From contig JBAIAA010000012.1 in NCBI GenBank assembly GCA_037893245.1, forward strand, positions 1 to 64,000: a DNA stretch of 64,000 nt. The letters run 5' to 3'. The DNA is from Crossaster papposus. Its lineage: Eukaryota > Echinodermata > Asteroidea > Velatida > Solasteridae. Position numbers and translations under genes: made by a program. The notes under the pieces were generated by a model. The model had not been told where the DNA came from, ran no database searches, and worked only from the letters and a program-made list of their open reading frames with translations. Positions 1 through 64,000 of the stretch are shown piece after piece; position 1 is the stretch's first letter, and every line of letters starts with the position of its first letter.

Positions 1-460
1 AAAGGGAAAGAAGTGTGCATAAGAAATATGTAAACGGAAAGAAGTGTGCATAAGAAATATGTAAAGGGAAAGAAGTGTGCATAAGAAATATGTAAACGGA
101 AAGAAGTGTGCATAAGAAATATGTAAAGGGAAAGAAGTGTGCATAAGAAATATGTAAAGGGAAAGAAGTGTGCATAAGAAATATGTAAAGGGAAAGAAGT
201 GTGCATAAGAAATATGTAAAGGGAAAGAAGTGTGCATAAGAAATATGTAAAGGGAAAGAAGTGTGCATAAGAAATATGTAAAGGGAAAGAAGTGTGAATA
301 AGAAATATGTAAAGGGGAAGAAGTGTGCATAAGAAATATGTAAAGGGAAAGAAGTGTGCATAAGAAATATGTAAAGGGAAAGAGGTGTGCATAAGAAATA
401 TGTAAAGGGAAAGAAGTGTGCATAAGAAATAAACACATGATGTGGGAACAAGCCCTCGAG
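1..460 (+). repeat. Segmental duplicate of 6398-6857 (offset 6,397 bp)
   Basis: Diagnostic variants recur at a constant offset: AAACGG at 32 and 94 matches 6429 and 6491, GAATA at 296 matches 6693, GAGGTG at 382 matches 6779, and the CTCGAG block at 431 matches 6828. The left copy has one private change (AAAGGGGAAG near 304). Similarity stops just after the block. The offset equals 197 monomers plus eight 36-bp blocks plus two single-base insertions, which agrees with what lies between the copies. Confidence 0.93.
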
Positions 461-466
461 TTAAAT
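431..466 (+). repeat. CTCGAG block, type A
   Basis: This is the reference copy of the 36-bp block. It begins AAACACATGATG, continues TGGGAACAAG and ends CCCTCGAGTTAAAT. It lies between AGAAAT and ATGT of one monomer, so a four-base AAAT is present on both sides. It holds the CTCGAG palindrome at 456-461, a short inverted repeat CACAT-G-ATGTG, and the only CpG of a consensus unit. Confidence 0.95.
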
Positions 467-2420
467 ATGTAAAGGGAAAGAAGTGTGCATAAGAAATATG
501 TAAAGGGAAAGAAGTGTGCATAAGAAATATGTAAAGGGAAAGAAGTGTGCATAAGAAATATGTAAAGGGAAAGAAGTGTGCATAAGAAATATGTAAAGGG
601 AAAGAAGTGTGCATAAGAAATATGTAAAGGGAAAGAAGTGTGCATAAGAAATATGTAAAGGGAAAGAAGTGTGCATAAGAAATATGTAAAGGGAAAGAAG
701 TGTGCATAAGAAATATGTAAAGGGAAAGAAGTGTGCATAAGAAATATGTAAAGGGACAGAAGTGTGCATAAGAAATATGTAAAAGGAAAGAAGTGTGCAT
801 AAGAAATATGTAAAGGGAAAGAAGTGTGCATAAGAAATATGTAAAAGGAAAGAAGTGTGCATAAGAAATATGTAAAGGGAAAGAAGTGTGCATAAGAAAT
901 ATGTAAAGGGAAAGAAGTTTGCATAAGAAATATGTAAAGGGAAAGAAGTGTGCATAATAAATATGTAAAGGGAAAGAAGTGTGCATAAGAAATATGTAAA
1001 GGGAAAGAAGTGTGTATAAGAAATATGTAAAGGGAAAGAAGTGTGCATAAGAAATATGTAAAGGGAAAGAAGTGTGCATAAGAAATATGTAAAGGGAAAG
1101 AAGTGTGCATAAGAAATATGTAAAGGGAAAGAAGTGTGCATAAGAAATATGTAAAGGGAAAGAAGTGTGCATAAGAAATATGTAAAGGGAAAGAAGTGTG
1201 CATAAGAAATATGTAAAGGGAAAGAAGTGTGCATAAGAAATATGTAAAGGGAAAGAAGTGTGCATAAGAAATATGTAAAGGGAAAGAAGTGTGCATAGGA
1301 AATATGTAAAGGGAAAGAAGTGTGCATAAGAAATATGTAAAGGGAAAGAAGTGTGCATAAGAAATATGTAAAGGGAAAGAAGTGTACATAAGAAATATGT
1401 AAAGGGAAAGGAGTGTGCATAAGAAATATGTAAAGGGAAAGAAGTGTGCATAAGAAATATGTAAAGGGAAAGAAGTGTGCATAAGAAATATGTAAAGGGA
1501 AAGAAGTGTGCATAAGAAATATGTAAATGGAAAGAAGTGTGCATAAGAAATATGTAAAGGGAAATAAGTGTGCATAAGAAATATGTAAAGGGAAAGAAGT
1601 GTGCATAAGAAATATGTAAAGGGAAAGAAGTGTGCATAAGAAATATGTAAAGGGAAAGAAGTGTGCATAAGAAATATGTAAAGGGAAAGAAGTGTGCATA
1701 AGAAATATGTAAAGGGAAAGAAGTGTGCATAAGAAATATGTAAAGGGAAAGAAGTGTGCATAAGAAATATGTAAAGGGAAAGAAGTGTGCATAAGAAATA
1801 TGTAAAGGGAAAGAAGTGTGCATAAGAAATATGTAAAGTGAAAGAAGTGTGCATAAGAAATATGTAAAGGGAAAGAAGTGTGCATAAGAAATATGTAAAG
1901 GGACAGAAGTGTGCATAAGAAATATGTAAAGGGAAAGAAGTGTGCATAGGAAATATGTAAAGGAAAAGAAGTGTGCATAAGAAATATGTAAAGGGAAAGA
2001 AGTGTGCATAAGAAATATGTAAAGGGAAAGAAGTGTGCATAAGAAATATGTAAAGGGAAAGAAGTGTGCATAAGAAATATGTAAAGGGAAAGAAGTGTGC
2101 ATAAGAAATATGTAAAGGGAAAGAAGTGTGCATAAGAAATATGTAAAGGGAAAGAAGTGTGCATACGAAATATGTAAAGGGAAAGAAGTGTGCATAAGAA
2201 ATATGTAAAGGGAAAGAAGTGTGCATAAGAAATATGTAAAGGGAAAGAAGTGTGCATAAGAAATATGTAAAGGGAAAGAAGTGTGCATAAGAAATATGTA
2301 AAGGGAAAGAAGTGTTCATAAGAAATATGTAAAGGGAAAGAAGTGTGCATAAGAAATATGTAAAGGGAAAGAAGTTTGCATAAGAAATATGTAAAGGGAA
2401 AGAAGTGTGCATAAAAAAAT

Positions 2421-2456
2421 AAACACATGATGTCGGGACAAGCCCTCGAGTTAAAT
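2421..2456 (+). repeat. CTCGAG block, type B
   Basis: The middle reads TGTCGGGACAAG instead of the A-type TGTGGGAACAAG, which adds a second CpG. The preceding monomer ends CATAAAAAAAT, one base longer than the usual CATAAGAAAT, and the same lengthening precedes the copy at 4829. Confidence 0.95.
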
Positions 2457-2921
2457 ATGTAAAGGGAAAGAAGTGTGCATAAGAAATATGTAAAGGGAAA
2501 GAAGTGTGCATAAGAAATATGTAAAGGGAAAGAAGTGTGCATAAGAAATATGTAAAGGGAAAGAAGTGTGCATAAGAAATATGTAAAGGGAAAGAAGTGT
2601 GCATAAGAAATATGTAAAGGGAAAGAAGTTTGCATAAGAAATATGTAAAGGGACAGAAGTGTGCATAAGAAATATGTAAAAGGAAAGAAGTGTGCATAAG
2701 AAATATGTAAAGGGAAAGAAGTGTGCATAAGAAATATGTAAAGGCAAAGAAGTGTGCATAAGAAATATGTAAAGGGAAAGAAGTGTGCATAATAATCATG
2801 TAAAGGGAAAGAAGTGTGCATAAGAAATATGTAAAGGGAAAGAAGTGTGTATAAGAAATATGTAAAGGGAAAGAAGTGTGCATAAGAAATATGTAAAGGG
2901 AAAGAAGTGTGCATAAGAAAT

Positions 2922-2957
2922 AAACACATGATGTCGGGACAAGCCCTCGAGTTAAAT
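2922..2957 (+). repeat. CTCGAG block, type B
   Basis: B-type middle (TGTCGGGACA). Its partner in the 2,408-bp duplication is at 5330. The next block follows 191 bp later (36 + 5 monomers) in both copies. Confidence 0.94.
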
Positions 2958-3112
2958 ATGTAAAGGGAAAGAAGTGTGCATAAGAAATATGTGAAGGGAA
3001 AGAAGTGTGCATAAGAAATATGTAAAGGGAAAGAAGTGTGCATAAAAAATATGTAAAGGGAAAGAAGTGTGCATAAGAAATATGTAAAGGGAAAGAAGTG
3101 TGCATAAGAAAT

Positions 3113-3148
3113 AAACACATGATGTCGGGACAAGCCCTCGAGTTAAAT
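3113..3148 (+). repeat. CTCGAG block, type B
   Basis: B-type block whose duplicate partner is at 5521. It is followed 222 bp later by an A-type block. Confidence 0.94.
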
Positions 3149-3334
3149 ATGTAAAGGGAAAGAAGTGTGCATAAGAAATATGTAAAGGGAAAGAAGTGTG
3201 CATAAGAAATATGTAAAGGGAAAGAAGTGTGCATAAGAAATATGTAAAGGGAAAGAAGTGTGCATAAGAAATATGTAAAGGGAAAGAAGTGTGCATAAGA
3301 AATATGTAAAGGGAAAGAAGTGTGCATAAGAAAT

Positions 3335-3370
3335 AAACACATGATGTGGGAACAAGCCCTCGAGTTAAAT
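3335..3370 (+). repeat. CTCGAG block, type A
   Basis: A-type block 222 bp (36 + 6 monomers) after the B-type copy at 3113. The 2,408-bp duplicate has no equivalent near 5743, so this block marks the end of the duplicated segment. Confidence 0.94.
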
Positions 3371-4828
3371 ATGTAAAGGGAAAGAAGTGTGCATAAGAAA
3401 TATGTAAAGGGAAAGAAGTGTGCATCAGAAATATGTAAAGGGAAAGAAGTGTGCATAAGAAATATGTAAAGGGAAAGAAGTGTGCATAAGAAATATGTAA
3501 AGGGAAAGAAGTGTGCATAAGAAATTTGTAAAGGGAAAGAAGTGTGCATAGGAAATATGTAAAGGGAAAGAAGTGTGCATAAGAAATATGTAAAGGGAAA
3601 GAAGTGTGCATAAGAAATATGTAAAGGGAAAGAAGTGTGCATAAGAAATATGTAAAGGGAAAGAAGTGTGCATAAGAAATATGTAAAGGGAAAGAAGTGT
3701 GCATAGGAAATATGTAAAGGGAAAGAAGTGTGCATAAGAAATATGTAAAGGGAAAGAAGTGTGCATAAGAAATATGTAAAGGGAAAGAAGTGTACATAAG
3801 AAATATGTAAAGGGAAAGGAGTGTGCATAAGAAATATGTAAAGGGAAAGAAGTGTGCATAAGAAATATGTAAAGGGAAAGAAGTGTACATAAGAAATATG
3901 TAAAGGGAAAGGAGTGTGCATAAGAAATATGTAAAGGGAAAGAAGTGTGCATAAGAAATATGTAAAGGGAAAGAAGTGTGCATAAGAAATATGTAAAGGG
4001 AAAGAAGTGTGCATAAGAAATATGTAAATGGAAAGAAGTGTGCATAAGAAATATGTAAAGGGAAATAAGTGTGCATAAGAAATATGTAAAGGGAAAGAAG
4101 TGTGCATAAGAAATATGTAAAGGGAAAGAAGTGTGCATAAGAAATATGTAAAGGGAAAGAAGTGTGCATAAGAAATATGTAAAGGGAAAGAAGTGTGCAT
4201 AAGAAATATGTAAAGGGAAAGAAGTGTGCATAAGAAATATGTAAAGGGAAAGAAGTGTGCATAAGAAATATGTAAAGGGAAAGAAGTGTGCATAAGAAAT
4301 ATGTAAAGGGAAAGAAGTGTGCATAAGAAATATGTAAAGTGAAAGAAGTGTGCATAAGAAATATGTAAAGGGAAAGAAGTGTGCATAAGAAATATGTAAA
4401 GGGACAGAAGTGTGCATAAGAAATATGTAAAGGGAAAGAAGTGTGCATAGGAAATATGTAAAGGAAAAGAAGTGTGCATAAGAAATATGTAAAGGGAAAG
4501 AAGTGTGCATAAGAAATATGTAAAGGGAAAGAAGTGTGCATAAGAAATATGTAAAGGGAAAGAAGTGTGCATAAGAAATATGTAAAGGGAAAGAAGTGTG
4601 CATAAGAAATATGTAAAGGGAAAGAAGTGTGCATAAGAAATATGTAAAGGGAAAGAAGTGTGCATACGAAATATGTAAAGGGAAAGAAGTGTGCATAAGA
4701 AATATGTAAAGGGAAAGAAGTGTGCATAAGAAATATGTAAAGGGAAAGAAGTGTGCATAAGAAATATGTAAAGGGAAAGAAGTTTGCATCAGAAATATGT
4801 AAAGGGAAAGAAGTGTGCATAAAAAAAT

Positions 4829-4864
4829 AAACACATGATGTCGGGACAAGCCCTCGAGTTAAAT
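4829..4864 (+). repeat. CTCGAG block, type B
   Basis: B-type block, duplicate of 2421. It is also preceded by the lengthened CATAAAAAAAT monomer end. Confidence 0.94.
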
Positions 4865-5329
4865 ATGTAAAGGGAAAGAAGTGTGCATAAGAAATATGTA
4901 AAGGGAAAGAAGTGTGCATAAGAAATATGTAAAGGGAAAGAAGTGTGCATAAGAAATATGTAAAGGGAAAGAAGTGTGCATAAGAAATATGTAAAGGGAA
5001 AGAAGTGTGCATAAGAAATATGTAAAGGGAAAGAAGTTTGCATAAGAAATATGTAAAGGGACAGAAGTGTGCATAAGAAATATGTAAAAGGAAAGAAGTG
5101 TGCATAAGAAATATGTAAAGGGAAAGAAGTGTGCATAAGAAATATGTAAAGGCAAAGAAGTGTGCATAAGAAATATGTAAAGGGAAAGAAGTGTGCATAA
5201 TAATCATGTAAAGGGAAATAAGTGTGCATAAGAAATATGTAAAGGGAAAGAAGTGTGTATAAGAAATATGTAAAGGGAAAGAAGTGTGCATAAGAAATAT
5301 GTAAAGGGAAAGAAGTGTGCATAAGAAAT

Positions 5330-5365
5330 AAACACATGATGTCGGGACAAGCCCTCGAGTTAAAT
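5330..5365 (+). repeat. CTCGAG block, type B
   Basis: B-type block, duplicate of 2922. Confidence 0.94.
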
Positions 5366-5520
5366 ATGTAAAGGGAAAGAAGTGTGCATAAGAAATATGT
5401 GAAGGGAAAGAAGTGTGCATAAGAAATATGTAAAGGGAAAGAAGTGTGCATAAGAAATATGTAAAGGGAAAGAAGTGTGCATAAGAAATATGTAAAGGGA
5501 AAGAAGTGTGCATAAGAAAT

Positions 5521-5556
5521 AAACACATGATGTCGGGACAAGCCCTCGAGTTAAAT
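5521..5556 (+). repeat. CTCGAG block, type B
   Basis: B-type block, duplicate of 3113. The following array diverges from copy 1 from about 5736 (CATAGG). Confidence 0.94.
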
Positions 5557-6397
5557 ATGTAAAGGGAAAGAAGTGTGCATAAGAAATATGTAAAGGGAAA
5601 GAAGTGTGCATAAGAAATATGTAAAGGGAAAGAAGTGTGCATAAGAAATATGTAAAGGGAAAGAAGTGTGCATAAGAAATATGTAAAGGGAAAGAAGTGT
5701 GCATAAGAAATATGTAAAGGGAAAGAAGTGTGCATAGGAAATATGTAAAGGGAAAGAAGTGTGCATAAGAAATATGTAAAGGGAAAGAAGTGTGCATAAG
5801 AAATATGTAAAGGGAAAGAAGTGTGCATAAGAAATATGTAAAGGGAAAGAAGTGTGCATAAGAAATCTATAAAGGGAAAGAAGTGTGCATAAGAAATATG
5901 TAAAGGGAAAGAAGTGTGCATAAGAAATATGTAAAGGGAAAGAAGTGTGCATAAGAAATATGTAAAGGGAAAGAAGTGTGCATAGGAAATATGTAAAGGG
6001 AAAGAAGTGTGCATAAGAAATATGTAAAGGGAAAGAAGTGTGCATAAGAAATATGTAAAGGGAAAGAAGTGTGCATAAGAAATATGTAAAGGGAAAGAAG
6101 TGTGCATAAGAAATATGTAAAGGGAAAGAAGTGTGCATAAGAAATATGTAAAGGGAAAGAAGTGTGCATAAGAAATATGTAAAGGGAAAGAAGTGTGCAT
6201 AAGAAATATGTAAAGGGAAAGAAGTGTGCATAAGAAATATGTAAAGGGAAAGAAGTGTGCATAAGAAATATGTAAAGGGAAAGAAGTGTGCATAAGAAAT
6301 ATGTAAAGGGAAAGAAGTGTGCATAAGAAATATGTAAAGGGAAAGAAGTGTGCATAAGAAATATGTAAAGGGAAAGAAGTGTGCATAAGAAATATGT

Positions 6398-6857
6398 AAA
6401 GGGAAAGAAGTGTGCATAAGAAATATGTAAACGGAAAGAAGTGTGCATAAGAAATATGTAAAGGGAAAGAAGTGTGCATAAGAAATATGTAAACGGAAAG
6501 AAGTGTGCATAAGAAATATGTAAAGGGAAAGAAGTGTGCATAAGAAATATGTAAAGGGAAAGAAGTGTGCATAAGAAATATGTAAAGGGAAAGAAGTGTG
6601 CATAAGAAATATGTAAAGGGAAAGAAGTGTGCATAAGAAATATGTAAAGGGAAAGAAGTGTGCATAAGAAATATGTAAAGGGAAAGAAGTGTGAATAAGA
6701 AATATGTAAAGGGAAAGAAGTGTGCATAAGAAATATGTAAAGGGAAAGAAGTGTGCATAAGAAATATGTAAAGGGAAAGAGGTGTGCATAAGAAATATGT
6801 AAAGGGAAAGAAGTGTGCATAAGAAATAAACACATGATGTGGGAACAAGCCCTCGAG
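6398..6857 (+). repeat. Segmental duplicate of 1-460
   Basis: This is the second copy of the segment at the left edge, sharing AAACGG (6429, 6491), GAATA (6693), GAGGTG (6779) and the block at 6828. The first copy is truncated by the window edge, so the duplicated segment may start further left there. Confidence 0.93.
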
Positions 6858-6863
6858 TTAAAT
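6828..6863 (+). repeat. CTCGAG block, type A
   Basis: A-type block that closes the mixed left block. No further block occurs until 11483. Confidence 0.94.
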
Positions 6864-9800
6864 ATGTAAAGGGAAAGAAGTGTGCATAAGAAATATGTAA
6901 AGGGAAAGAAGTGTGCATAAGAAATATGTAAAGGGAAAGAAGTGTGCATAAGAAATATGTAAAGGGAAAGAAGTGTGCATAAGAAATATGTAAAGGGAAA
7001 GAAGTGTGCATAAGAAATATGTAAAGGGAAAGAAGTGTGCATAAGAAATATGTAAAGGGAAAGAAGTGTGCATAAGAAATATGTAAAGGGAAAGTGTGCA
7101 TAAGAAATATGTAAAGGGAAAGAAGTGTGCATAAGAAATATGTAAAGGGAAAGAAGTGTGCATAAGAAATATGTAAAGGGAAAGAAGTGTGCATAAGAAA
7201 TATGTAAAGGGAAAGAAGTGTGCATAAGAAATATGTAAAGGGAAAGAAGTGTGCATAAGAAATATGTAAAGGGAAAGAAGTGTGCATAAGAAATATGTAA
7301 AGGGAAAGAAGTGTGCATAAGAAATATGTAAAGGGAAAGAAGTGTGCATAAGAAATATGTAAAGGGAAAGAAGTGTGCATAAGAAATATGTAAAGGGAAA
7401 GAAGTGTGCATAAGAAATATGTAAAGGGAAAGAAGTGTGCATAAGAAATATGTAAAGGGAAAGAAGTGTGCATAAGAAATATGTAAAGGGAAAGAAGTGT
7501 GCATAAGAAATATGTAAAGGGAAAGAAGTGTGCATAAGAAATATGTAAAGGGAAAGAAGTGTGCATAAGAAATATGTAAAGGGAAAGAAGTGTGCATAAG
7601 AAATATGTAAAGGGAAAGAAGTGTGCATAAGAAATATGTAAAGGGAAAGAAGTGTGCATAAGAAATATGTAAAGGGAAAGAAGTGTGCATAAGAAATATG
7701 TAAAGGGAAAGAAGTGTGCATAAGAAATATGTAAAGGGAAAGAAGTGTGCATAAGAAATATGTAAAGGGAAAGAAGTGTGCATAAGAAATATGTAAAGGG
7801 AAAGAAGTGTGCATAAGAAATATGTAAAGGGAAAGAAGTGTGCATAAGAAATATGTAAAGGGAAAGAAGTGTGCATAAGAAATATGTAAAGGGAAAGAAG
7901 TGTGCATAAGAAATATGTAAAGGGAAAGAAGTGTGCATAAGAAATATGTAAAGGGAAAGAAGTGTGCATAAGAAATATGTAAAGGGAAAGAAGTGTGCAT
8001 AAGAAATATGTAAAGGGAAAGAAGTGTGCATAAGAAATATGTAAAGGGAAAGAAGTGTGCATAAGAAATATGTAAAGGGAAAGAAGTGTGCATAAGAAAT
8101 ATGTAAAGGGAAAGAAGTGTGCATAAGAAATATGTAAAGGGAAAGAAGTGTGCATAAGAAATATGTAAAGGGAAAGAAGTGTGCATAAGAAATATGTAAA
8201 GGGAAAGAAGTGTGCATAAGAAATATGTAAAGGGAAAGAAGTGTGCATAAGAAATATGTAAAGGGAAAGAAGTGTGCATAAGAAATATGTAAAGGGAAAG
8301 AAGTGTGCATAAGAAATATGTAAAGGGAAAGAAGTGTGCATAAGAAATATGTAAAGGGAAAGAAGTGTGCATAAGAAATATGTAAGAGATGGAAAGAAGT
8401 GTGCATAAGAAATATGTAAAGGGAAAGAAGTGTGCATAAGAAATATGTAAAGGGAAAGAAGTGTGCATAAGAAATATGTAAAGGGAAAGAAGTGTGCATA
8501 AGAAATATGTAAAGGGAAAGAAGTGTGCATAAGAAATATGTAAAGGGAAAGAAGTGTGCATAAGAAATATGTAAAGGGAAAGAAGTGTGCATAAGAAATA
8601 TGTAAAGGGAAAGAAGTGTGCATAAGAAATATGTAAAGGGAAAGAAGTGTGCATAAGAAATATGTAAAGGGAAAGAAGTGTGCATAAGAAATATGTAAAG
8701 GGAAAGAAGTGTGCATAAGAAATATGTAAAGGGAAAGAAGTGTGCATAAGAAATATGTAAAGGGAAAGAAGTGTGCATAAGAAATATGTAAAGGGAAAGA
8801 AGTGTGCATAAGAAATATGTAAAGGGAAAGAAGTGTGCATAAGAAATATGTAAAGGGAAAGAAGTGTGCATAAGAAATATGTAAAGGGAAAGAAGTGTGC
8901 ATAAGAAATATGTAAAGGGAAAGAAGTGTGCATAAGAAATATGTAAAGGGAAAGAAGTGTGCATAAGAAATATGTAAAGGGAAAGAAGTGTGCATAAGAA
9001 ATATGTAAAGGGAAAGAAGTGTGCATAAGAAATATGTAAAGGGAAAGAAGTGTGCATAAGAAATATGTAAAGGGAAAGAAGTGTGCATAAGAAATATGTA
9101 AAGGGAAAGAAGTGTGCATAAGAAATATGTAAAGGGAAAGAAGTGTGCATAAGAAATATGTAAAGGGAAAGAAGTGTGCATAAGAAATATGTAAAGGGAA
9201 AGAAGTGTGCATAAGAAATATGTAAAGGGAAAGAAGTGTGCATAAGAAATATGTAAAGGGAAAGAAGTGTGCATAAGAAATATGTAAAGGGAAAGAAGTG
9301 TGCATAAGAAATATGTAAAGGGAAAGAAGTGTGCATAAGAAATATGTAAAGGGAAAGAAGTGTGCATAAGAAATATGTAAAGGGAAAGAAGTGTGCATAA
9401 GAAATATGTAAAGGGAAAGAAGTGTGCATAAGAAATATGTAAAGGGAAAGAAGTGTGCATAAGAAATATGTAAAGGGAAAGAAGTGTGCATAAGAAATAT
9501 GTAAAGGGAAAGAAGTGTGCATAAGAAATATGTAAAGGGAAAGAAGTGTGCATAAGAAATATGTAAAGGGAAAGAAGTGTGCATAAGAAATATGTAAAGG
9601 GAAAGAAGTGTGCATAAGAAATATGTAAAGGGAAAGAAGTGTGCATAAGAAATATGTAAAGGGAAAGAAGTGTGCATAAGAAATATGTAAAGGGAAAGAA
9701 GTGTGCATAAGAAATATGTAAAGGGAAAGAAGTGTGCATAAGAAATATGTAAAGGGAAAGAAGTGTGCATAAGAAATATGTAAAGGGAAAGAAGTGTGCA

Positions 9801-11482: not shown

Positions 11483-11585
11483 AAACACATGATGTGGGAA
11501 CAAGCCCTCGAGTTAAATATGTAAAGGGAAAGAAGTGTGCATAAGAAATAAACACATGATGTGGGAACAAGCCCTCGAGTTAAAT
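11483..11585 (+). repeat. Paired A-type blocks, 67-bp spacing (pair 1 of 10)
   Basis: Blocks start at 11483 and 11550, separated by one monomer. The monomer before the pair carries CATACG. The first monomer after it reads GGGAAAAAAG instead of GGGAAAGAAG, a marker that follows all ten pairs. Confidence 0.95.
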
Positions 11586-32167: not shown

Positions 32168-32203
32168 AAACACATGATGTGGGAACAAGCCCTCGAGTTA
32201 AAT
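32168..32203 (+). repeat. CTCGAG block, type A
   Basis: Single A-type block, 1,090 bp before the next at 33258. Confidence 0.94.
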
Positions 32204-37600: not shown

Positions 37601-39118
37601 TATGTAAAGGGAAAGAAGTGTGCATAAGAAATATGTAAAGGGAAAGAAGTGTGCATAAGAAATATGTAAAGGGAAAGAAGTGTGCATAAGAAATATGTAA
37701 AGGGAAAGAAGTGTGCATAAGAAATATGTAAAGGGAAAGAAGTGTGCATAAGAAATATGTAAAGGGAAAGAAGTGTGCATAAGAAATATGTAAAGGGAAA
37801 GAAGTGTGCATAAGAAATATGTAAAGAAAGAAGTGTGCATAAGAAATATGTAAAGGGAAAGAAGTGTGCATAAGAAATATGTAAAGGGAAAGAAGTGTGC
37901 ATAAGAAATATGTAAAGGGAAAGAAGTGTGCATAAGAAATATGTAAAGGGAAAGAAGTGTGCATAAGAAATATGTAAAGGGAAAGAAGTGTGCATAAGAA
38001 ATATGTAAAGGGAAAGAAGTGTGCATAAGAAATATGTAAAGGGAAAGAAGTGTGCATAAGAAATATGTAAAGGGAAAGAAGTGTGCATAAGAAATATGTA
38101 AAGGGAAAGAAGTGTGCATAAGAAATATGTAAAGGGAAAGAAGTGTGCATAAGAAATATGTAAAGGGAAAGAAGTGTGCATAAGAAATATGTAAAGGGAA
38201 AGAAGTGTGCATAAGAAATATGTAAAGGGAAAGAAGTGTGCATAAGAAATATGTAAAGGGAAAGAAGTGTGCATAAGAAATATGTAAAGGGAAAGAAGTG
38301 TGCATAAGAAATATGTAAAGGGAAAGAAGTGTGCATAAGAAATATGTAAAGGGAAAGAAGTGTGCATAAGAAATATGTAAAGGGAAAGAAGTGTGCATAA
38401 GAAATATGTAAAGGGAAAGAAGTGTGCATAAGAAATATGTAAAGGGAAAGAAGTGTGCATAAGAAATATGTAAAGGGAAAGAAGTGTGCATAAGAAATAT
38501 GTAAAGGGAAAGAAGTGTGCATAAGAAATATGTAAAGGGAAAGAAGTGTGCATAAGAAATATGTAAAGGGAAAGAAGTGTGCATAAGAAATATGTAAAGG
38601 GAAAGAAGTGTGCATAAGAAATATGTAAAGGGAAAGAAGTGTGCATAAGAAATATGTAAAGGGAAAGAAGTGTGCATAAGAAATATGTAAAGGGAAAGAA
38701 GTGTGCATAAGAAATATGTAAAGGGAAAGAAGTGTGCATAAGAAATATGTAAAGGGAAAGAAGTGTGCATAAGAAATATGTAAAGGGAAAGAAGTGTGCA
38801 TAAGAAATATGTAAAGGGAAAGAAGTGTGCATAAGAAATATGTAAAGGGAAAGAAGTGTGCATAAGAAATATGTAAAGGGAAAGAAGTGTGCATAAGAAA
38901 TATGTAAAGGGAAAGAAGTGTGCATAAGAAATATGTAAAGGGAAAGAAGTGTGCATAAGAAATATGTAAAGGGAAAGAAGTGTGCATAAGAAATATGTAA
39001 AGGGAAAGAAGTGTGCATAAGAAATATGTAAAGGGAAAGAAGTGTGCATAAGAAATATGTAAAGGGAAAGAAGTGTGCATAAGAAATATGTAAAGGGAAA
39101 GAAGTGTGCATAAGAAAT
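34605..39118 (+). repeat. Homogeneous monomer tract 2, no blocks
   Basis: About 145 nearly perfect consensus monomers. The only clear departure is a 27-bp unit missing four bases (GTAAAGAAAGAAG) at about 37821-37833. A one-base-short CATAGAAAT monomer lies upstream at 34121. Like 6864-11482, this lack of variation contrasts with the flanking arrays. Confidence 0.93.
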
Positions 39119-39146
39119 AAAGAAAGATGTGGAAAGCCGAGTAAAT
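39119..39146 (+). repeat. Degenerate CTCGAG block (about 28 of 36 bp)
   Basis: The sequence aligns to the block with several gaps: AAAGAAAGATGTGG matches AAACACATGATGTGG, AAAGCC matches AACAAGCCC, and GAGTAAAT matches GAGTTAAAT. The CTCGAG palindrome is lost. It sits in the usual register between AGAAAT and ATGT. It is the only badly damaged copy in the window. Confidence 0.8.
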
Positions 39147-39260
39147 ATGTAAAGGGAGTTGTGCTTATGAATGTATGTAAATGGAAAGAAGTGTGCATAA
39201 GAAATATGTAAAGGGAAAGGAAGGGTGGCATAAGAAATATGTAAAGGTGAAAGAAGTGTG
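39147..39260 (+). repeat. Corrupted monomers inside homogeneous tract
   Basis: Three to four consecutive monomers carry many small indels and substitutions: GGGAGTTGTGCTTATGAATGTATGT, given here only as a description of positions 39154-39178, then GAAAGGAAGGGTGGC near 39217-39231 and AAAGGTGAAAG near 39245. Perfect monomers resume at once. The mixed indel pattern resembles uncorrected long-read error rather than satellite divergence. Confidence 0.75.
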
Positions 39261-40727
39261 CATAAGAAATATGTAAAGGGAAAGAAGTGTGCATAAGAAA
39301 TATGTAAAGGGAAAGAAGTGTGCATAAGAAATATGTAAAGGGAAAGAAGTGTGCATAAGAAATATGTAAAGGGAAAGAAGTGTGCATAAGAAATATGTAA
39401 AGGGAAAGAAGTGTGCATAAGAAATATGTAAAGGGAAAGAAGTGTGCATAAGAAATATGTAAAGGGAAAGAAGTGTGCATAAGAAATATGTAAAGGGAAA
39501 GAAGTGTGCATAAGAAATATGTAAAGGGAAAGAAGTGTGCATAAGAAATATGTAAAGGGAAAGAAGTGTGCATAAGAAATATGTAAAGGGAAAGAAGTGT
39601 GCATAAGAAATATGTAAAGGGAAAGAAGTGTGCATAAGAAATATGTAAAGGGAAAGAAGTGTGCATAAGAAATATGTAAAGGGAAAGAAGTGTGCATAAG
39701 AAATATGTAAAGGGAAAGAAGTGTGCATAAGAAATATGTAAAGGGAAAGAAGTGTGCATAAGAAATATGTAAAGGGAAAGAAGTGTGCATAAGAAATATG
39801 TAAAGGGAAAGAAGTGTGCATAAGAAATATGTAAAGGGAAAGAAGTGTGCATAAGAAATATGTAAAGGGAAAGAAGTGTGCATAAGAAATATGTAAAGGG
39901 AAAGAAGTGTGCATAAGAAATATGTAAAGGGAAAGAAGTGTGCATAAGAAATATGTAAAGGGAAAGAAGTGTGCATAAGAAATATGTAAAGGGAAAGAAG
40001 TGTGCATAAGAAATATGTAAAGGGAAAGAAGTGTGCATAAGAAATATGTAAAGGGAAAGAAGTGTGCATAAGAAATATGTAAAGGGAAAGAAGTGTGCAT
40101 AAGAAATATGTAAAGGGAAAGAAGTGTGCATAAGAAATATGTAAAGGGAAAGAAGTGTGCATAAGAAATATGTAAAGGGAAAGAAGTGTGCATAAGAAAT
40201 ATGTAAAGGGAAAGAAGTGTGCATAAGAAATATGTAAAGGGAAAGAAGTGTGCATAAGAAATATGTAAAGGGAAAGAAGTGTGCATAAGAAATATGTAAA
40301 GGGAAAGAAGTGTGCATAAGAAATATGTAAAGGGAAAGAAGTGTGCATAAGAAATATGTAAAGGGAAAGAAGTGTGCATAAGAAATATGTAAAGGGAAAG
40401 AAGTGTGCATAAGAAATATGTAAAGGGAAAGAAGTGTGCATAAGAAATATGTAAAGGGAAAGAAGTGTGCATAAGAAATATGTAAAGGGAAAGAAGTGTG
40501 CATAAGAAATATGTAAAGGGAAAGAAGTGTGCATAAGAAATATGTAAAGGGAAAGAAGTGTGCATAAGAAATATGTAAAGGGAAAGAAGTGTGCATAAGA
40601 AATATGTAAGGGGAAAGAAGTGTGCATAAGAAATATGTAAAGGGAAAGAAGTGTGAATAAGAAATATGTAAAGGGAAAGAAGTGTGCATAAGAAATATGT
40701 AAAGGGAAAGAAGTGTGCATAAGAAAT
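39261..40727 (+). repeat. Homogeneous monomer tract 2, continued
   Basis: Perfect consensus monomers run to about 40605. Then come GTAAGGGGAAAG (about 40607) and GTGAATAAG (about 40650), two variants also found together near 296-310, before the block cluster begins. Confidence 0.9.
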
Positions 40728-45728: not shown

Positions 45729-48580
45729 ATGTAAAGGGAAAGAAGTGTGCATAAGAAATATGTAAAGGGAAAGAAGTGTGCATAAGAAATATGTAAAGGG
45801 AAAGAAGTGTGCATAAGAAATATGTAAAGGGAAAGAAGTGTGCATAAGAAATATGTAAAGGGAAAGAAGTGTGCATAAGAAATAAGTAAAGGGAAAGAAG
45901 TGTGCATAAGAAATATGTAAAGGGAAAGAAGTGTGCATAAGAAAAAATTTAAAGGGAAAGAAGTGTGCATAAGAAATATGTAAAGGGAAAGAAGTGTGCA
46001 TACGAAATATGTAAAGGGAAAGAAGTGTGCATAATAAATATGTAAAGGGAAAGAAGTGTGCATAAGAAATATGTAAAGGGAAAGAAGTGTGCATGAGAAA
46101 TATGTAAAGGGAAAGAAGTGTGCATAAGAAATATGTAAAGGAAAAGAAGTGTGCATAATAAATATGTAAAGGGAAAGAAGTGTGCATAAGACATAATAAA
46201 GGGAAAGAAGTGTGCATAAGAAATATGTAAAGGGAAAGAAGTGTGCATAAGAAATATGTAAAGGGAAAGAAGTGTGCATAAGAAATATGTAAAGGGAAAG
46301 AAGTGTGCATAAGAAATATGTAAAGGGAAAGAAGTGTGCATAAGAAATATGTAAAGGGAAAGAAGTGTGCATAAGAAATATGTAAAGGGAAAGAAGTGTG
46401 CATAAGAAATATGTAAAGGGAAAGAAGTGTGCATAAGAAATATGTAAAGGGAAAGAAGTGTGCATAAGAAATATGTAAAGGGAAAGAAGTGTGCATAAGA
46501 AATATGTAAAGGGAAAGAAGTGTGCATAAGAAATATGTAAAGGGAAAGAAGTGTGCATAAGAAATATGTAAAGGGAAAGAAGTGTGCATAAGAAATATGT
46601 AAAGGGAAAGAAGTGTGCATAAGAAATATGTAAAGGGAAAGAAGTGTGCATAAGAAATATGTAAAGGGAAAGAAGTGTGCATAAGAAATATGTAAAGGGA
46701 AAGAAGTGTGCATAAGAAATATGTAAAGAGAAAGAAGTGTGCATAAGAAATATGTAAAGGGAAAGAAGTGTGCATAAGAAATATGTAAAGGGAAAGAAGT
46801 GTGCATAAGAAATATGTAAAGGGAAAGAAGTGTGCATAAGAAATATGTAAAGGGAAAGAAGTGTGCATAAGAAATATGTAAAGGGAAAGAAGTGTGCATA
46901 AGAAATATGTAAAGGGAAAGAAGTGTGCATAAGAAATATGTAAAGGGAAAGAAGTGTGCATAAGAAATATGTAAAGGGAAAGAAGTGTGCATAAGAAATA
47001 TGTAAAGGGAGAGAAGTGTGCATAAGAAATATGTAAAGGGAAAGAAGTGTGCATAAGAAATATGTAAAGGGAAAGAAGTGTGCATAAGAAATATGTAAAG
47101 GGAAAGAAGTGTGCATAAGAAATATGTAAAGAGAAAGAAGTGTGCATAAGAAATATGTAAAGGGAAAGAAGTGTGCATAAGAAATATGTAAAGGGAAAGA
47201 AGTGTGCATAAGAAATATGTAAAGGGAAAGAAGTGTGCATAAGAAATATGTAAAGGGAAAGAAGTGTGCATAAGAAATATGTAAAGGGAAAAAAGTGTGC
47301 TTAAGAAATATGTAAAGGGAAAGAAGTGTGCATAAGAAATATGTAAAGGGAAAGAAGTGTGCATAAGAAATATGTAAAGGGAAAGAAGTGTGCATAAGAA
47401 ATATGTAAAGGGAAAGAAGTGTGCATAAGAAATATGTAAAGGGAAAGAAGTGTGCATAAGAAATATGTAAAGGGAAAGAAGTGTGCATAAGAAATATGTA
47501 AAGGGAAAGAAGTGTGCATAAGAAATATGTAAAGGGAAAGAAGTGTGCATAAGAAATATGTAAAGGGAAAGAAGTGTGCATAAGAAATATGTAAAGAGAA
47601 AGAAGTGTGCATAAGAAATATGTAAAGGGAAAGAAGTGTGCATAAGAAATATGTAAAGGGAAAGAAGTGTGCATAAGAAATATGTAAAGGGAAAGAAGTG
47701 TGCATAAGAAATATGTAAAGGGAAAGAAGTGTGCATAAGAAATATGTAAAGGGAAAGAAGTGTGCATAAGAAATATGTAAAGGGAAAGAAGTGTGCATAA
47801 GAAATATGTAAAGGGAAAGAAGTGTGCATAAGAAATATGTAAAGGGAAAGAAGTGTGCATAAGAAATATGTAAAGGGAAAGAAGTGTGCATAAGAAATAT
47901 GTAAAGGGAAAGAAGTGTGCATAAGAAATATGTAAAGGGAAAGAAGTGTGCATAAGAAATATGTAAAGGGAAAGAAGTGTGCATAAGAAATATGTAAAGG
48001 GAAAGAAGTGTGCATAAGAAATATGTAAAGGGAAAGAAGTGTGCATAAGAAATATGTAAAGGGAAAGAAGTGTGCATAAGAAATATGTAAAGGGAAAGAA
48101 GTGTGCTTAAGAAATATGTAAAGGGAAAGAAGTGTGCATAAGAAATATGTAAAGGGAAAGAAGTGTGCATAAGAAATATGTAAAGGGAAAGAAGTGTGCA
48201 TAAGAAATATGTAAAGGGAAAGAAGTGTGCATAAGAAATATGTAAAGGGAAAGAAGTGTGCATAAGAAATATGTAAAGGGAAAGAAGTGTGCATACGAAA
48301 TATGTAAAGGGAAAGAAGTGTGCATAAGAAATATGTAAAGGGAAAGAAGTGTGCATAAGAAATATGTAAAGGGAAAGAAGTGTGCATAAGAAATATGTAA
48401 AGGGAAAGAAGTGTGCATAAGAAATATGTAAAGGGAAAGAATTGTGCATAAGAAATATGTAAAGGGAAAGAAGTGTGCATAAGAAATATGTAAAGGGAAA
48501 GAAGTGTGCATAAGAAATATGTAAAGGGAAAGAAGTGTGCATAAGAAATATGTAAAGGGAAAGAAGTGTGCATTAGAAAT
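45729..48580 (+). repeat. Block-free variant-rich monomer array
   Basis: About 2.85 kb of monomers. There is a one-base-long unit (GAAAAAATTTAAAG, about 45941-45954), a short AATAATAAAGG-type unit near 46194 (written ACATAATAAAGG), CATGAG near 46094, and GCTTAAG near 47309 and 48106. No gene or other feature seen. Confidence 0.88.
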
Positions 48581-54395: not shown

Positions 54396-55376
54396 AAACA
54401 CATGATGTGGGAACAAGCCCTCGAGTTAAATATGTAAAGGGAAAGAAGTGTGCATAAGAAATATGTAAAGGGAAAGAAGTGTGCATAAGAAATATGTAAA
54501 GGGAAAGAAGTGTGCATAAGAAATATGGAAAGGGAAAGAAGTGTGCATAAGAAATATGTAAAGGGAAAGAAGTGTGCATAAGAAATAAGTAAAGGGAAAG
54601 AAGTGTGCATAAGAAATATGTAAAGGGAAAGAAGTGTGCATAAGAAATATTTAAAGGGAAAGAAGTGTGCATAAGAAATATGTAAAGGGAAAGAAGTGTG
54701 CATAAGAAATATGTAAAGGGAAAGAAGTGTGCATAAGAAATATGTAAAGGGAAAGAAGTGTGCATTAGAAATAAACACATGATGTGGGAACAAGCCCTCG
54801 AGTTAAATATGTAAAGGGAAAGAAGTGTGCATAAGAAATATGTAAAGGGAAAGAAGTGTGCATAAGAAATATGTAAAGGGAAAGAAGTGTGCATAAGAAA
54901 TATGTAAAGGGAAAGAAGTGTGCATAAGAAATATGTAAAGGGAAAGAAGTGTGCATAAGAAATGTGTAAAGGGAAAGAAGTGTGCATAAGAAATAAACAC
55001 ATGATGTGGGAACAAGCCCTCGAGTTAAATATGTAAAGGGAAAGAAGTGTGCATAAGAAATATGTAAAGGGAAAGAGGTGTGCATAAGAAATATGTAAAG
55101 GGAAAGAAGTGTGCATAAGAAATATGTAAAGGGAAAGAAGTGTGCATAAGAAATATGTAAAGGGAAAGAAGTGTGCATAAGAAATATGTAAAGGGAAAGA
55201 AGTGTGCATAAGAAATATGTAAAGGGAAAGAAGTGTGCATAAGAAATATGTAAAGGGAAAGAAGTGTGCATAAGAAATATGTAAAGGGAAAGAAGTGTGC
55301 ATAAGAAATATGTAAAGGGAAAGAAGTGTGCATTAGAAATAAACACATGATGTGGGAACAAGCCCTCGAGTTAAAT
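54396..55376 (+). repeat. Four-block module, copy 3
   Basis: Blocks at 54396, 54773, 54995 and 55341, +1,921 bp from copy 2. Like copy 2 it continues to a block 222 bp on (55563), so copies 2 and 3 are closer relatives. The first block lacks CATTAG, and a private AAATATGGAAAG change lies near 54527. Confidence 0.91.
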
Positions 55377-58300: not shown

Positions 58301-59466
58301 TGTAAAGGGAAAGAAGTGTGCATAAGAAATATGTAAAGGGAAAGAAGTGTGCATAAGAAATATGTAAAGGGAAAGAAGTGTGCATAAGAAATATGTAAAG
58401 GGAAAGAAGTGTGCATAAGAAATGTGTAAAGGGAAAGAAGTGTGCATAAGAAATAAACACATGATGTGGGAACAAGCCCTCGAGTTAAATATGTAAAGGG
58501 AAAGAAGTGTGCATAAGAAATATGTAAAGGGAAAGAGGTGTGCATAAGAAATATGTAAAGGGAAAGAAGTGTGCATAAGAAATATGTAAAGGGAAAGAAG
58601 TGTGCATAAGAAATATGTAAAGGGAAAGAAGTGTGCATAAGAAATATGTAAAGGGAAAGAAGTGTGCATAAGAAATATGTAAAGGGAAAGAAGTGTGCAT
58701 AAGAAATATGTAAAGGGAAAGAAGTGTGCATAAGAAATATGTAAAGGGAAAGAAGTGTGCATAAGAAATATGTAAAGGGAAAGAAGTGTGCATTAGAAAT
58801 AAACTCATGATGTGGGAACAAGCCCTCGAGTTAAATATGTAAAGGGAAAGAAGTGTGCATAAGAAATATGTAAAGGGAAAGAAGTGTGCATTAGAAATAA
58901 ACACATGATGTGGGAACAAGCCCTCGAGTTAAATATGTAAAGGGAAAGAAGTGTGCATAAGAAATATGTAAAGGGAAAGAAGTGTGCATAAGAAATATGT
59001 AAAGGGAAAGAAGTGTGCATAAGAAATATGTAAAGGGAAAGAAGTGTGCATAAGAAATATGTAAAGGGAAAGAAGTGTGCATAAGAAATGTGTAAAGGGA
59101 AAGAAGTGTGCATAAGAAATAAACACATGATGTGGGAACAAGCCCTCGAGTTAAATATGTAAAGGGAAAGAAGTGTGCATAAGAAATATGTAAAGGGAAA
59201 GAGGTGTGCATAAGAAATATGTAAAGGGAAAGAAGTGTGCATAAGAAATATGTAAAGGGAAAGAAGTGTGCATAAGAAATATGTAAAGGGAAAGAAGTGT
59301 GCATAAGAAATATGTAAAGGGAAAGAAGTGTGCATAAGAAATATGTAAAGGGAAAGAAGTGTGCATAAGAAATATGTAAAGGGAAAGAAGTGTGCATAAG
59401 AAATATGTAAAGGGAAAGAAGTGTGCATACGAAATATGTAAAGGGAAAGAAGTGTGCATTAGAAAT

Positions 59467-61320
59467 AAACACATAATGTGGGAACAAGCCCTCGAGTTAA
59501 ATATGTAAAGGGAAAGAAGTGTGCATAAGAAATATGTAAAGGGAAAGAAGTGTGCATAAGAAATATGTAAAGGGAAAGAAGTGTGCATAAGAAATATGTA
59601 AAGGGAAAGAAGTGTGCATAAGAAATATGTAAAGGGAAAGAAGTGTGCATAAGAAATGTGTAAAGGGAAAGAAGTGTGCATAAGAAATAAACACATGATG
59701 TGGGAACAAGCCCTCGAGTTAAATATGTAAAGGGAAAGAAGTGTGCATAAGAAATATGTAAAGGGAAAGAAGTGTGCATAAGAAATATGTAAAGGGAAAG
59801 AAGTGTGCATAAGAAATATGTAAAGGGAAAGAAGTGTGCATAAGAAATATGTAAAGGGAAAGAAGTGTGCATAAGAAATATGTAAAGGGAAAGAAGTGTG
59901 CATACAAAATATGTAAAGGGAAAGAAGTGTGCATAAGAAATATGTAAAGGGAAAGAAGTGTGCATAAGAAATATGTAAAGGGAAAGAAGTGTGCATAAGA
60001 AATATGTAAAGGGAAAGAAGTGTGCATACGAAATATGTAAAGGGAAATAAGTGTGCTTAAGAAATATGTAAAGGGAAAGAAGTGTGCATAAGAAATATGT
60101 AAAGGGAAAGAAGTGTGCATAAGAAATATGTAAAGGGAAAGAAGTGTGCATAAGAAATATGTAAAGGGAAAGAAGTGTGCATAAGAAATATGTAAAGGGA
60201 AAGAAGTGTGCATAAGAAATATGTAAAGGGAAAGAAGTGTGCATAAGAAATATGTAAAGGGAAAGAAGTGTGCATTAGAAATAAACACATGATGTGGGAA
60301 CAAGCCCTCGAGTTAAATATGTAAAGGGAAAGAAGTGTGCATAAGAAATATGTAAAGGGAAAGAAGTGTGCATAAGAAATTTGTAAAGGGAAAGAAGTGT
60401 GCATAAGAAATATGTAAAGGGAAAGAAGTGTGCATAAGAAATATGTAAAGGGAAAGAAGTGTGCATAAGAAATGTGTAAAGGGAAAGAAGTGTGCATAAG
60501 AAATAAACACATGATGTGGGAACAAGCCCTCGAGTTAAATATGTAAAGGGAAAGAAGTGTGCATAAGAAATATGTAAAGGGAAAGAGGTGTGCATAAGAA
60601 ATATGTAAAGGGAAAGAAGTGTGCATAAGAAATATGTAAAGGGAAAGAAGTGTGCATACGAAATATGTAAAGGGAAAGAAGTGTGCATAAGAAATATGTA
60701 AAGGGAAAGAAGTGTGCATAAGAAATATGTAAAGGGAAAGAAGTGTGCATAAGAAATATGTAAAGGGAAAGAAGTGTGCATAAGAAATATGTAAAGGGAA
60801 AGAAGTGTGCATAAGAAATATGTAAAGGGAAAGAAGTGTGCATAAGAAATATGTAAAGGGAAAGAAGTGTGCATAAGAAATATGTAAAGGGAAAGAAGTG
60901 TGCATAAGAAATATGTAAAGGGAAAGAAGTGTGCATAAGAAATATGTAAAGGGAAAGAAGTGTGCATAAGAAATATGTAAAGGGAAAGAAGTGTGCATAA
61001 GAAATATGTAAAGGGAAAGAAGTGTGCATAAGAAATATGTAAAGGGAAAGAAGTGTGCATACGAAATATGTAAAGGGAAAGAAGTGTGCATAAGAAATAT
61101 GTAAAGGGAAAGAAGTGTGCATAAGAAATATGTAAAGGGAAAGAAGTGTGCATAAGAAATATGTAAAGGGAAAGAAGTGTGCATAAGAAATATGTAAAGG
61201 GAAAGAAGTGTGCATAAGAAATATGTAAAGGGAAAGAAGTGTGCATAAGAAATATGTAAAGGGAAAGAAGTGTGCATTAGAAATAAACACATAATGTGGG
61301 AACAAGCCCTCGAGTTAAAT
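59467..61320 (+). repeat. Nested higher-order repeat (about 1.8-1.9 kb period)
   Basis: Blocks 59467 and 61285 share the rare ACATAATG change and are 1,818 bp apart, as are their 222-bp partners 59689 and 61507. The next pair, 60283 to 62194, is 1,911 bp apart, that is 93 bp or three monomers more. The unit has therefore been copied in tandem with a three-monomer length change. Confidence 0.9.
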
Positions 61321-62193
61321 ATGTAAAGGGAAAGAAGTGTGCATAAGAAATATGTAAAGGGAAAGAAGTGTGCATAAGAAATATGTAAAGGGAAAGAAGT
61401 GTGCATAAGAAATATGTAAAGGGAAAGAAGTGTGCATAAGAAATATGTAAAGGGAAAGAAGTGTGCATAAGAAATGTGTAAAGGGAAAGAAGTGTGCATA
61501 AGAAATAAACACATGATGTGGGAACAAGCCCTCGAGTTAAATATGTAAAGGGAAAGAAGTGTGCATAAGAAATATGTAAAGGGAAAGAGGTGTGCATAAG
61601 AAATATGTAAAGGGAAAGAAGTGTGCATAAGAAATATGTAAAGGGAAAGAAGTGTGCATAAGAAATATGTAAAGGGAAAGAAGTGTGCATAAGAAATATG
61701 TAAAGGGAAAGAAGTGTGCATAAGAAATATGTAAAGGGAAAGAAGTGTGCATAAGAAATATGTAAAGGGAAAGAAGTGTGCATAAGAAATATGTAAAGGG
61801 AAAGAAGTGTGCATACGAAATATGTAAAGGGAAAGAAGTGTGCATAAGAAATATGTAAAGGGAAAGAAGTGTGCATAAGAAATATGTAAAGGGAAAGAAG
61901 TGTGCATAAGAAATATGTAAAGGGAAAGAAGTGTGCATAAGAAATATGTAAAGGGAAATAAGTGTGCTTAAGAAATATGTAAAGGGAAAGAAGTGTGCAT
62001 AAGAAATATGTAAAGGGAAAGAAGTGTGCATAAGAAATATGTAAAGGGAAAGAAGTGTGCATAAGAAATATGTAAAGGGAAAGAAGTGTGCATAAGAAAT
62101 ATGTAAAGGGAAAGAAGTGTGCATAAGAAATATGTAAAGGGAAAGAAGTGTGCATAAGAAATATGTAAAGGGAAAGAAGTGTGCATTAGAAAT

Positions 62194-64000
62194 AAACACA
62201 TGATGTGGGAACAAGCCCTCGAGTTAAATATGTAAAGGGAAAGAAGTGTGCATAAGAAATATGTAAAGGGAAAGAAGTGTGCATAAGAAATTTGTAAAGG
62301 GAAAGAAGTGTGCATAAGAAATATGTAAAGGGAAAGAAGTGTGCATAAGAAATATGTAAAGGGAAAGAAGTGTGCATAAGAAATGTGTAAAGGGAAAGAA
62401 GTGTGCATAAGAAATAAACACATGATGTGGGAACAAGCCCTCGAGTTAAATATGTAAAGGGAAAGAAGTGTGCATAAGAAATATGTAAAGGGAAAGAGGT
62501 GTGCATAAGAAATATGTAAAGGGAAAGAAGTGTGCATAAGAAATATGTAAAGGGAAAGAAGTGTGCATACGAAATATGTAAAGGGAAAGAAGTGTGCATA
62601 AGAAATATGTAAAGGGAAAGAAGTGTGCATAAGAAATATGTAAAGGGAAAGAAGTGTGCATAAGAAATATGTAAAGGGAAAGAAGTGTGCATAAGAAATA
62701 TGTAAAGGGAAAGAAGTGTGCATAAGAAATATGTAAAGGGAAAGAAGTGTGCATAAGAAATATGTAAAGGGAAAGAAGTGTGCATAAGAAATATGTAAAG
62801 GGAAAGAAGTGTGCATAAGAAATATGTAAAGGGAAAGAAGTGTGCATAAGACATATGTAAAGGGAAAGAAGTGTGCATAAGAAATATGTAAAGGGAAAGA
62901 AGTGTGCATAAGAAATATGTAAAGGGAAAGAAGTGTGCATAAGAAATATGTAAAGGGAAAGAAGTGTGCATACGAAATATGTAAAGGGAAAGAAGTGTGC
63001 ATAAAAAATATGTAAAGGGAAAGAAGTGTGCATAAGAAATATGTAAAGGGAAAGAAGTGTGCATAAGAAATATGTAAAGGGAAAGAAGTGTGCATAAGAA
63101 ATATGTAAAGGGAAAGAAGTGTGCATAAGAAATATGTAAAGGGAAAGAAGTGTGCATAAGAAATATGTAAAGGGAAAGAAGTGTGCATAAGAAATATGTA
63201 AAGGGAAATAAGTGTGCATAATAAATATGTAAAGGGAAAGAAGTGTGCATTAGAAATAAACACATGATGTGGGAACAAGCCCTCGAGTTAAATATGTAAA
63301 GGGAAAGAAGTGTGCATAAGAAATATGTAAAAGGAAAGAAGTGTGCATAAGAAATATGTAAAGGGAAAGAAGTGTGCATAAGAAATAAACACATGATGTG
63401 GGAACAAGCCCTCGAGTTAAATATGTAAAGGGAAAGAAGTGTGCATAAGAAATATGTAAAGGGAAAGAAGTGTGCATAAGAAATATGTAAAGGGAAAGAA
63501 GTGTGCATAAGAAATATGTAAAGGGAAAGAAGTGTGCATTAGAAATAAACACATGATGTGGGAACAAGCCCTCGAGTTAAATATGTAAAGGGAAAGAAGT
63601 GTGCATAAGAAATATGTAAAGGGAAAGAAGTGTGCATAAGAAATATGTAAAGGGAAAGAAGTGTGCATAAGAAATATGTAAAGGGAAAGAAGTGTGCATA
63701 AGAAATATGTAAAGGGAAAGAAGTGTGCATAAGAAATGTGTAAAGGGAAAGAAGTGTGCATAAGAAATAAACACATGATGTGGGAACAAGCCCTCGAGTT
63801 AAATATGTAAAGGGAAAGAAGTGTGCATAAGAAATATGTAAAGGGAAAGAGGTGTGCATAAGAAATATGTAAAGGGAAAGAAGTGTGCATAAGAAATATG
63901 TAAAGGGAAAGAAGTGTGCATAAGAAATATGTAAAGGGAAAGAAGTGTGCATAAGAAATATGTAAAGGGAAAGAAGTGTGCATAAGAAATATGTAAAGGG
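62194..64000 (+). repeat. Large duplication copy 2, cut by window end
   Basis: Partner of 49996-51802. Blocks 62194 and 62416 also match 60283 and 60505 at offset 1,911 bp, with AATTTGT 60378/62289 and GTGTGCTTA 60051/61962, so a shorter higher-order repeat is nested here. The repeat continues beyond the window. Confidence 0.93.

Follow-up and report, generated by a model that had tools for sequence, protein, structure and literature searches.

A 36-bp block in a 31-bp satellite of Crossaster papposus, probably one module of a composite T-X-M-B unit

Contig JBAIAA010000012.1 (C12, 228 kb) of the Crossaster papposus assembly (1.023 Gb in 1,841 contigs) begins with a satellite whose 31-bp monomer (M) is joined again and again, always at the same place, to a second and apparently unrelated block (B) of 36 bp. 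We have analyzed the first 64,000 nucleotides of this contig, called here the window, along with other arrays of the same genome. Block B is probably one module of a modular satellite, made up of the modules M, B, T and X, that have fixed joints and are copied together, and not the product of many insertions at one spot. What is new here is that, in other arrays of the genome, M and B are linked to the two further modules, T and X, in the order T-X-M-B.

According to Tandem Repeats Finder the whole window (1-64000) is a single head-to-tail array of period 31, as befits a satellite. Alignment of the window to a cyclic 31-bp monomer M, with block B as an optional element, resolves it into 1,966 monomers (two of them cut at the window ends; 1,591 without any edit) and 86 blocks, 85 of which have 36 bp while one is a degenerate form of 28 bp. 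Among the 85 intact blocks, 73 have the consensus sequence, eight carry GTCGGGAC in place of GTGGGAAC (two linked changes that we call allele C), two have CATAATG and two have private variants. On the contigs C62 and C176 there are blocks with GTCGGAAC, a step between the alleles GTGGGAAC and GTCGGGAC. The window contains no block on the minus strand, where the best fit still has 17 mismatches.

The original prediction had put 86 blocks between a left AGAAAT and a right ATGT. Both the count and the single joint stand, since all 86 blocks sit between AAAT and ATGT, with ATGT on the right in 86 of 86; the literal hexamer AGAAAT, however, occurs at only 78 of them, the last monomer being substituted at the other eight (five ACGAAAT, two AAAAAAT and one AATAAAT). 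The predicted block spacing of 36 + 31n also survives a direct check: 75 of the 85 spacings obey it exactly (two of these hold length changes that cancel, in the monomers at 7081 and 8380 and at 45915 and 46195), and the remaining 10 contain monomers of 28-33 bp, in one case together with the 28-bp block, which account exactly for the deviations. Random insertion into any of the 31 positions of the monomer, the null model first set against this register, is trivially rejected, but it is not a fair null. Since the copies are related by descent, 86 copies in register do not amount to 86 independent events.

That descent is visible in the monomers around the blocks. For each block and its best-matching partner we have scored the variant monomers that the two have in common without any break in register, counting monomers only. 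At least one such variant monomer is common to the block and its closest partner for 73 of the 86 blocks, and at least five for 33 of them; in 50 draws of equally large random sets of plain monomers the corresponding means were 33.0 and 1.5 of 86 and the maxima 46 and 6. When neighboring blocks are counted as informative too, the sharing rises to 75/86 and 48/86. Particular variants make the same point. All 18 monomers with A1G have a block after them, and in 17 of these instances a plain monomer and then one with A16G come next; a block likewise comes after 23 of the 25 A25T monomers, and nine of the ten B-M-B doublets lead into one and the same variant, a monomer with A in place of G at position 14. 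Toward the end of the window a composite unit of two blocks and several marked monomers (Table 1) is present in 10 copies, plus three with one variant monomer inside. Ten exact repeats of 13-34 units, each with 7-9 non-consensus units (blocks included), join distant parts of the window, and the six neighboring allele C blocks between 2421 and 5556 belong to one segment that is present in two copies, offset by 2,408 bp.

Multi-monomer units with common variants are hence repeated, as in a higher-order array. There is no regular period, neither the monomer variants nor the blocks having a dominant unit shift and the distances between anchors being variable, so the array works as a higher-order array but an irregular one. 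Because the flanking variants are common to block copies well above the control, we conclude that the blocks spread as parts of copied array segments, which upholds the earlier proposal of a spread by satellite amplification.

The alternative of repeated insertion, by a mobile element with the strict target AAATA, would account for block ends that are identical throughout the window, yet it is very improbable on several counts. It does not predict flank haplotypes common so far beyond the control, nor that all blocks of the window point the same way with respect to M. For 81 of the 86 blocks the window could be examined for an empty counterpart, with identical flanking variants but no block, as expected beside the filled sites of a transposon; none was found (a modest test that relies on exact matching), and the varied positions also expected of a transposon were lacking among the 20 suspicious genome copies described below. 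With 36 bp the block has no room for coding, and by eye its terminal inverted match is only about AAC/GTT. Finally, no block outside an array was met in the loci fetched, although the genome was not searched specifically for such copies.

For a wider view of the register we have employed pattern searches of the whole assembly. The block pattern, with up to three mismatches, has 195,564 matches (106,686 forward and 88,878 reverse). At one block per 744 bp, the density of the window, this would correspond to some 145 Mb, a rough reckoning and not a measurement, as the density varies elsewhere; if it is near the truth, the family makes up a large share of a one-gigabase genome. The register test covered exact block cores with a base other than T at the tested position, two places to the left, of which there are 216 genome-wide. 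From the 100 of these that were listed we have taken 20, and none of the 20 is an out-of-register block; their joints differ from the usual form by one or two substitutions or by indels of at most 4 bp. The original prediction had proposed a search for blocks in other registers elsewhere in the genome as its check, and among these 20 there are none. One of these 20 places (locus L080, contig C931, 860-1560) has a directly doubled block, at an offset of 34 bp and with no monomer between the two. In 64 loci that were not picked for aberrance the left T is present in 122 of 122 cores, and the right flank AAATATGTA in 121 of 122.

That B may be an old neighbor of M is suggested by a second class of arrays. 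We have examined 54 contig starts that were taken by number, most of them above 1200, with their content unseen beforehand: 16 are M arrays (class 1, counted as such whether or not the stretch contains blocks), two (C1300 and C1350) are of class 2, defined as holding T, and 36, two of them starting with N, lack an array. Two further contigs, C10 and C27, were added on the grounds that they hold T. The class 2 arrays link a form of M with two base changes and a form of B with one change to the modules T (43 bp, ATGTAGTAGTAGGGATATGCCGATTGTAGACCAAATCTTAAAT) and X (47 bp, ending in TTATTATT). Their order is T...T-X-M-B, or the same with M-B doubled. The smallest complete unit, T-X-M-B, has 154 bp, T being 40 bp long where it meets X, and corresponds to the 154-bp spacing of X to X (locus L068). 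Seven distinct X-to-X spacings (154, 221, 240, 264, 283, 393 and 436 bp) all equal 154 + 43a + 67b, and one further spacing, of 547 bp, is the sum 283 + 264 across an X with one substitution. Module T, with 536,454 genome-wide matches, is a large satellite in its own right.

Module-to-module transitions were counted in the loci from L039 on that have at least eight modules, for modules no more than 20 bp apart. The 42 class 1 loci, 20 of which are the stretches chosen for their aberrant cores, gave 2297 MM, 163 MB, 160 BM and 1 BB. The six class 2 loci gave 208 TT, 40 MB, 26 TX, 26 XM, 25 BT and 13 BM, and no transition of any other kind. The distance rule dropped four MM in class 1 and one BB in class 2, where the M in between was too diverged for the scan. 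In class 2, consequently, all 40 transitions out of M lead to B, and MM is absent among the 338 transitions; no locus with both M runs and T was found among the loci scanned. The implication of the original prediction that the block had been placed into a 31-bp satellite becomes doubtful in view of these counts, although the sample comes mostly from one contig.

The modules show no similarity to one another beyond that of shuffled sequences (M, B, T and X). Their ends have short stretches in common: M and T begin with ATGTA; M, B and T end with AAAT, and B and T more fully with TTAAAT. X ends with TTATT and B begins with AAAC, so that some unit joints hold only part of the common motif.

Considering these joints, the history that we favor would run as follows. 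Block B would be the old right-hand neighbor of M in an earlier composite T-X-M-B unit, and the 31-bp runs a later, runaway expansion of M. The loops by which the arrays grew, through microhomology or slippage, may have rejoined within one short common stretch, TTAAATATGTA, at the B/T joint. A T-to-T loop would have joined the end of T to the end of B, with TTAAA in common, and a B-to-M loop two places that share TATGTA; a passage from M to M could have arisen when a B that stood between two AAATA copies was lost. If M had instead been duplicated directly, from the X/M and M/B joints, only 2 bp would have been in common. One class of arrays would in this way have multiplied T, and the class in the window M, without T and X. 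Unequal exchange, or some homologous process like it, would then have copied the M runs with their blocks in register and given the irregular higher-order repeats. The register itself would be inherited from the founding M/B joint and kept by homologous copying in phase. We prefer this composite-first order because class 2 shows no M without B.

A single early insertion is the alternative that competes most directly with such a history: a piece of 31 to 36 bp may have entered one monomer, with AAATA as its target-site duplication or microhomology, the site then being amplified and an M-B pair later captured into T-X. Although we regard it as fairly unlikely, this accounts for the window in full, and block and monomer indeed have no homology. 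A 5-bp direct repeat AAATA does flank the consensus block, and a random-insert model gave a terminal repeat of at least 5 bp in only 0.8% of trials; the same repeat, however, is equally expected from the deletion of a module, here the loss of B between tandem M-B units. In the window, none of the 81 blocks examined has an empty site with matching flanks. With the insertion first, M must always have been captured together with B, since in class 2 it never leads to another M. Against this last argument, one or a few captures would suffice, as the M-B joints of class 2 lie nearly all on one contig.

That concentration is one of several points that weigh on the composite-first order. Class 2 is represented by only four contigs (C10, C27, C1300 and C1350), two of which had been selected for the presence of T, and 38 of the 40 M-B joints are on C1300, the other two being on C27. 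On this account we hold the composite-first order a little less firmly than we otherwise would, and give the early insertion a little more weight. An M-B pair without M-M is also what class 2 could show if one such pair had been captured into a T-X array. The preference for a composite ancestor rests on parsimony. X ends unlike the other modules, and as none of the modules resembles another, the composite-first order does not account for the origin of the modules themselves. The A25T monomer, found next to many blocks of the window, has one base in common with the monomer of class 2; being a single lineage, it lends only weak support.

A more speculative extension of the composite-first history, which we put forward tentatively and do not expect to hold in full, is that a single unit of 154 bp, about the length of a nucleosome, duplicated and dropped its pieces at an 11-bp hinge, TTAAATATGTA, and that T and M separately became major satellites. 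If this were true, seemingly unrelated satellite families would descend side by side from one unit, with the hinge acting as a hotspot of recombination and not a mere seam.

The original prediction had also suggested that the register may be held by unequal exchange or by a bound protein. That something has to hold it is not borne out: in-register homologous copying suffices, and as such copying is by nature in phase, the register needs no bound protein; moreover, the M-B joint is kept as well where B has a different right-hand neighbor. A protein at the block or its joint, for example at a centromere box, that selects the register while shifted copies are lost is very improbable as an explanation. 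It could be argued from the 94 of the window's 166 CpGs that lie in blocks and from the CTCGAG that is intact in 85 of 86 blocks. The divergence of the block, however, is 0.65% (0.13% without the two linked changes of allele C), within the range of 0.12%-2.16% at nearby monomer positions, against 0.74% over all monomers, and private variants are about equally rare, at 0.065% per base in the block versus 0.089%. On these sequence comparisons the block seems to be under no special constraint or protection. There is no CENP-B box either, the best candidate having 7 of 17 mismatches, a fit equalled in half of the shuffles, and descent alone explains the register.

Two other identities for the block were tried and rejected. 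As a diverged monomer it fares no better than chance: its local alignment to M was matched by 33% and 28% of 2,000 shuffles (for the two alleles, plus strand) and by 93% and 57% (minus strand), and a frame-locked global alignment was worse than most shuffles. Nor does it form a hairpin beyond chance (z of -0.32 and -0.15).

Finally, the pattern might be an artefact of assembly, the DNA of such arrays being hard to assemble. A cluster of indels at 39119-39270, made up of the 28-bp block and monomers of 28, 33 and 32 bp, lies in the most uniform part of the array and looks like poorly polished consensus. Nevertheless, the same joint recurs on many contigs, in both array classes and among different local variants, which leaves an artefact scarcely credible. 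The window also contains three runs of perfect monomers, the longest of 103 units (Table 1) and two others of 41 (37848-39118) and 43 (39271-40603), and these are either a very recent expansion or a collapsed or padded assembly.

Several known satellites resemble parts of this system. In alpha satellite only a part of the monomers, the B type, carries a short motif, always at one position, and higher-order repeats arise from segmental copying. The window is similar in having a fixed-place element in part of its units and in its segmental copying. In alpha satellite, however, the CENP-B box replaces bases within a monomer of constant length, whereas here a separate 36-bp module, without a CENP-B box, lies between monomers. 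Bovine satellites, with their 31- and 23-bp subrepeats and inserted segments, are comparable by description in combining short subrepeats with a foreign segment.

The nearest published case that we have found is the satellite library of the nematodes Meloidogyne chitwoodi and M. fallax. There, unrelated monomers of about 170-180 bp occur both in higher-order units and in simple arrays, and the junctions between monomers lie in short conserved motifs, one of them a 17-bp CENP-B-box-like sequence, that are read as sites of rearrangement (PMC3694981). The C. papposus modules are likewise dissimilar, combined in units and also present as simple arrays. In contrast to the nematode monomers, they are only 31-47 bp long, their common joint of about 11 bp is not CENP-B-box-like, and a single 154-bp unit seems to have given rise to two large satellites, each from one of its modules. 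Satellites that have grown from tandem repeats within retrotransposons (PMC7004042) offer a second parallel, in that a longer parent yields a short piece that expands into arrays; unlike that case, a gene-bearing parent was not found here, the parent seen being the tandem 154-bp unit. The literal monomer and block sequences had no match in the literature searched, most of the subscription literature lying outside that search, and within the same limits the literature on 31-bp satellites, starfish satellites and echinoderm higher-order repeats showed nothing on these sequences; on starfish satellites, PMC10153287 offered no more than a reference and a table row.

It is difficult to put models of satellite origin to the test, since their successive steps can rarely be observed together. 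In this genome the stages seem to coexist, from the complete 154-bp unit through units with one or several T or M-B loops to long arrays of a single piece. Each copy of the block is a marker, so that gain, loss and segmental copying are directly measurable. More generally, neither site-specific insertion nor a bound protein can be concluded from the mere fact that an insert-like block keeps a fixed register.

Table 1. Positions of the features discussed within the 64,000-bp window.
Feature	Start	End	Strand	Remarks
Class 1 array of 31-bp satellite, monomer M ATGTAAAGGGAAAGAAGTGTGCATAAGAAAT, with 86 blocks B	1	64000	+	start of contig C12
Direct repeat AAATA (5 bp) at the joints of the first block, left copy	427	431	+	right copy 463-467
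First block B, AAACACATGATGTGGGAACAAGCCCTCGAGTTAAAT	431	466	+	...AGAAAT on left, ATGT... on right
Stretch of 30 units	1335	2264	+	exact repeat at 3836-4765; 9 non-consensus units in common
Six of the eight allele C (GTCGGGAC) blocks	2421	5556	+	starts at 2421, 2922, 3113, 4829, 5330, 5521
Region of the ten block doublets B-M-B	11483	28634	+	
Allele C block	21740	21775	+	
Longest run of perfect monomers	34626	37818	+	103 units, without block
Degenerate 28-bp block	39119	39146	+	followed by degenerate 28-bp monomer (39147-39174)
Allele C block	42600	42635	+	
Region of the composite unit	48457	63990	+	(A25T monomer)-B-5 monomers-(A1G monomer)-B-1 monomer-(A16G monomer)
Last block B of the window	63769	63804	+	

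Some minor properties of the monomer may be added. The minus strand of the consensus 31-mer has no stop codon and as a consequence yields reading frames of up to 4,841 amino acids, which we reject as genes, since a stop-free repeat gives such spurious frames. A pair of joined monomers could form a hairpin of five pairs (-1.3 kcal/mol) that was matched by only 4 of 200 shuffles and is weak in energy. An A to C change at monomer position 26 (CATACGAAAT), found in 64 monomers, creates a CpG; this change and the blocks together may account for most of the window's 166 CpGs, the consensus monomer having none.

Searches for other known elements gave no matches: none to Rfam families in the window (at gathering level) or in locus L067 (up to E 0.1), no tRNA in L067, the one stretch scanned for them, none for the exact monomer and block patterns in collections of other genome contigs and viral contigs, and none for one 2-kb stretch of the window against plasmids (BLAST with the low-complexity filter on).

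Elsewhere in the assembly, contig C8 (more than 5 Mb) has matches to the COX1 family at 2.87 Mb and 5.21 Mb, with long open frames and no inner stops, and may be a bacterial chromosome. Another COX1 match lies on contig C1841 (16,330 bp); translated with the echinoderm code, in which AAA stands for N, ATA for I, AGA for S and TGA for W, it resembles the usual COX1 protein. Frames that by eye are nad1 and nad2 run on the strand opposite to cox1, an arrangement that probably marks sea stars. Further along C12 itself, at about 86.9-92.7 kb (locus L041, 2918-8741), the array is interrupted after the GGGAAA of a monomer by a 5.8-kb insert, in which a long stretch is present twice and which, judged by eye, is retroelement-like.

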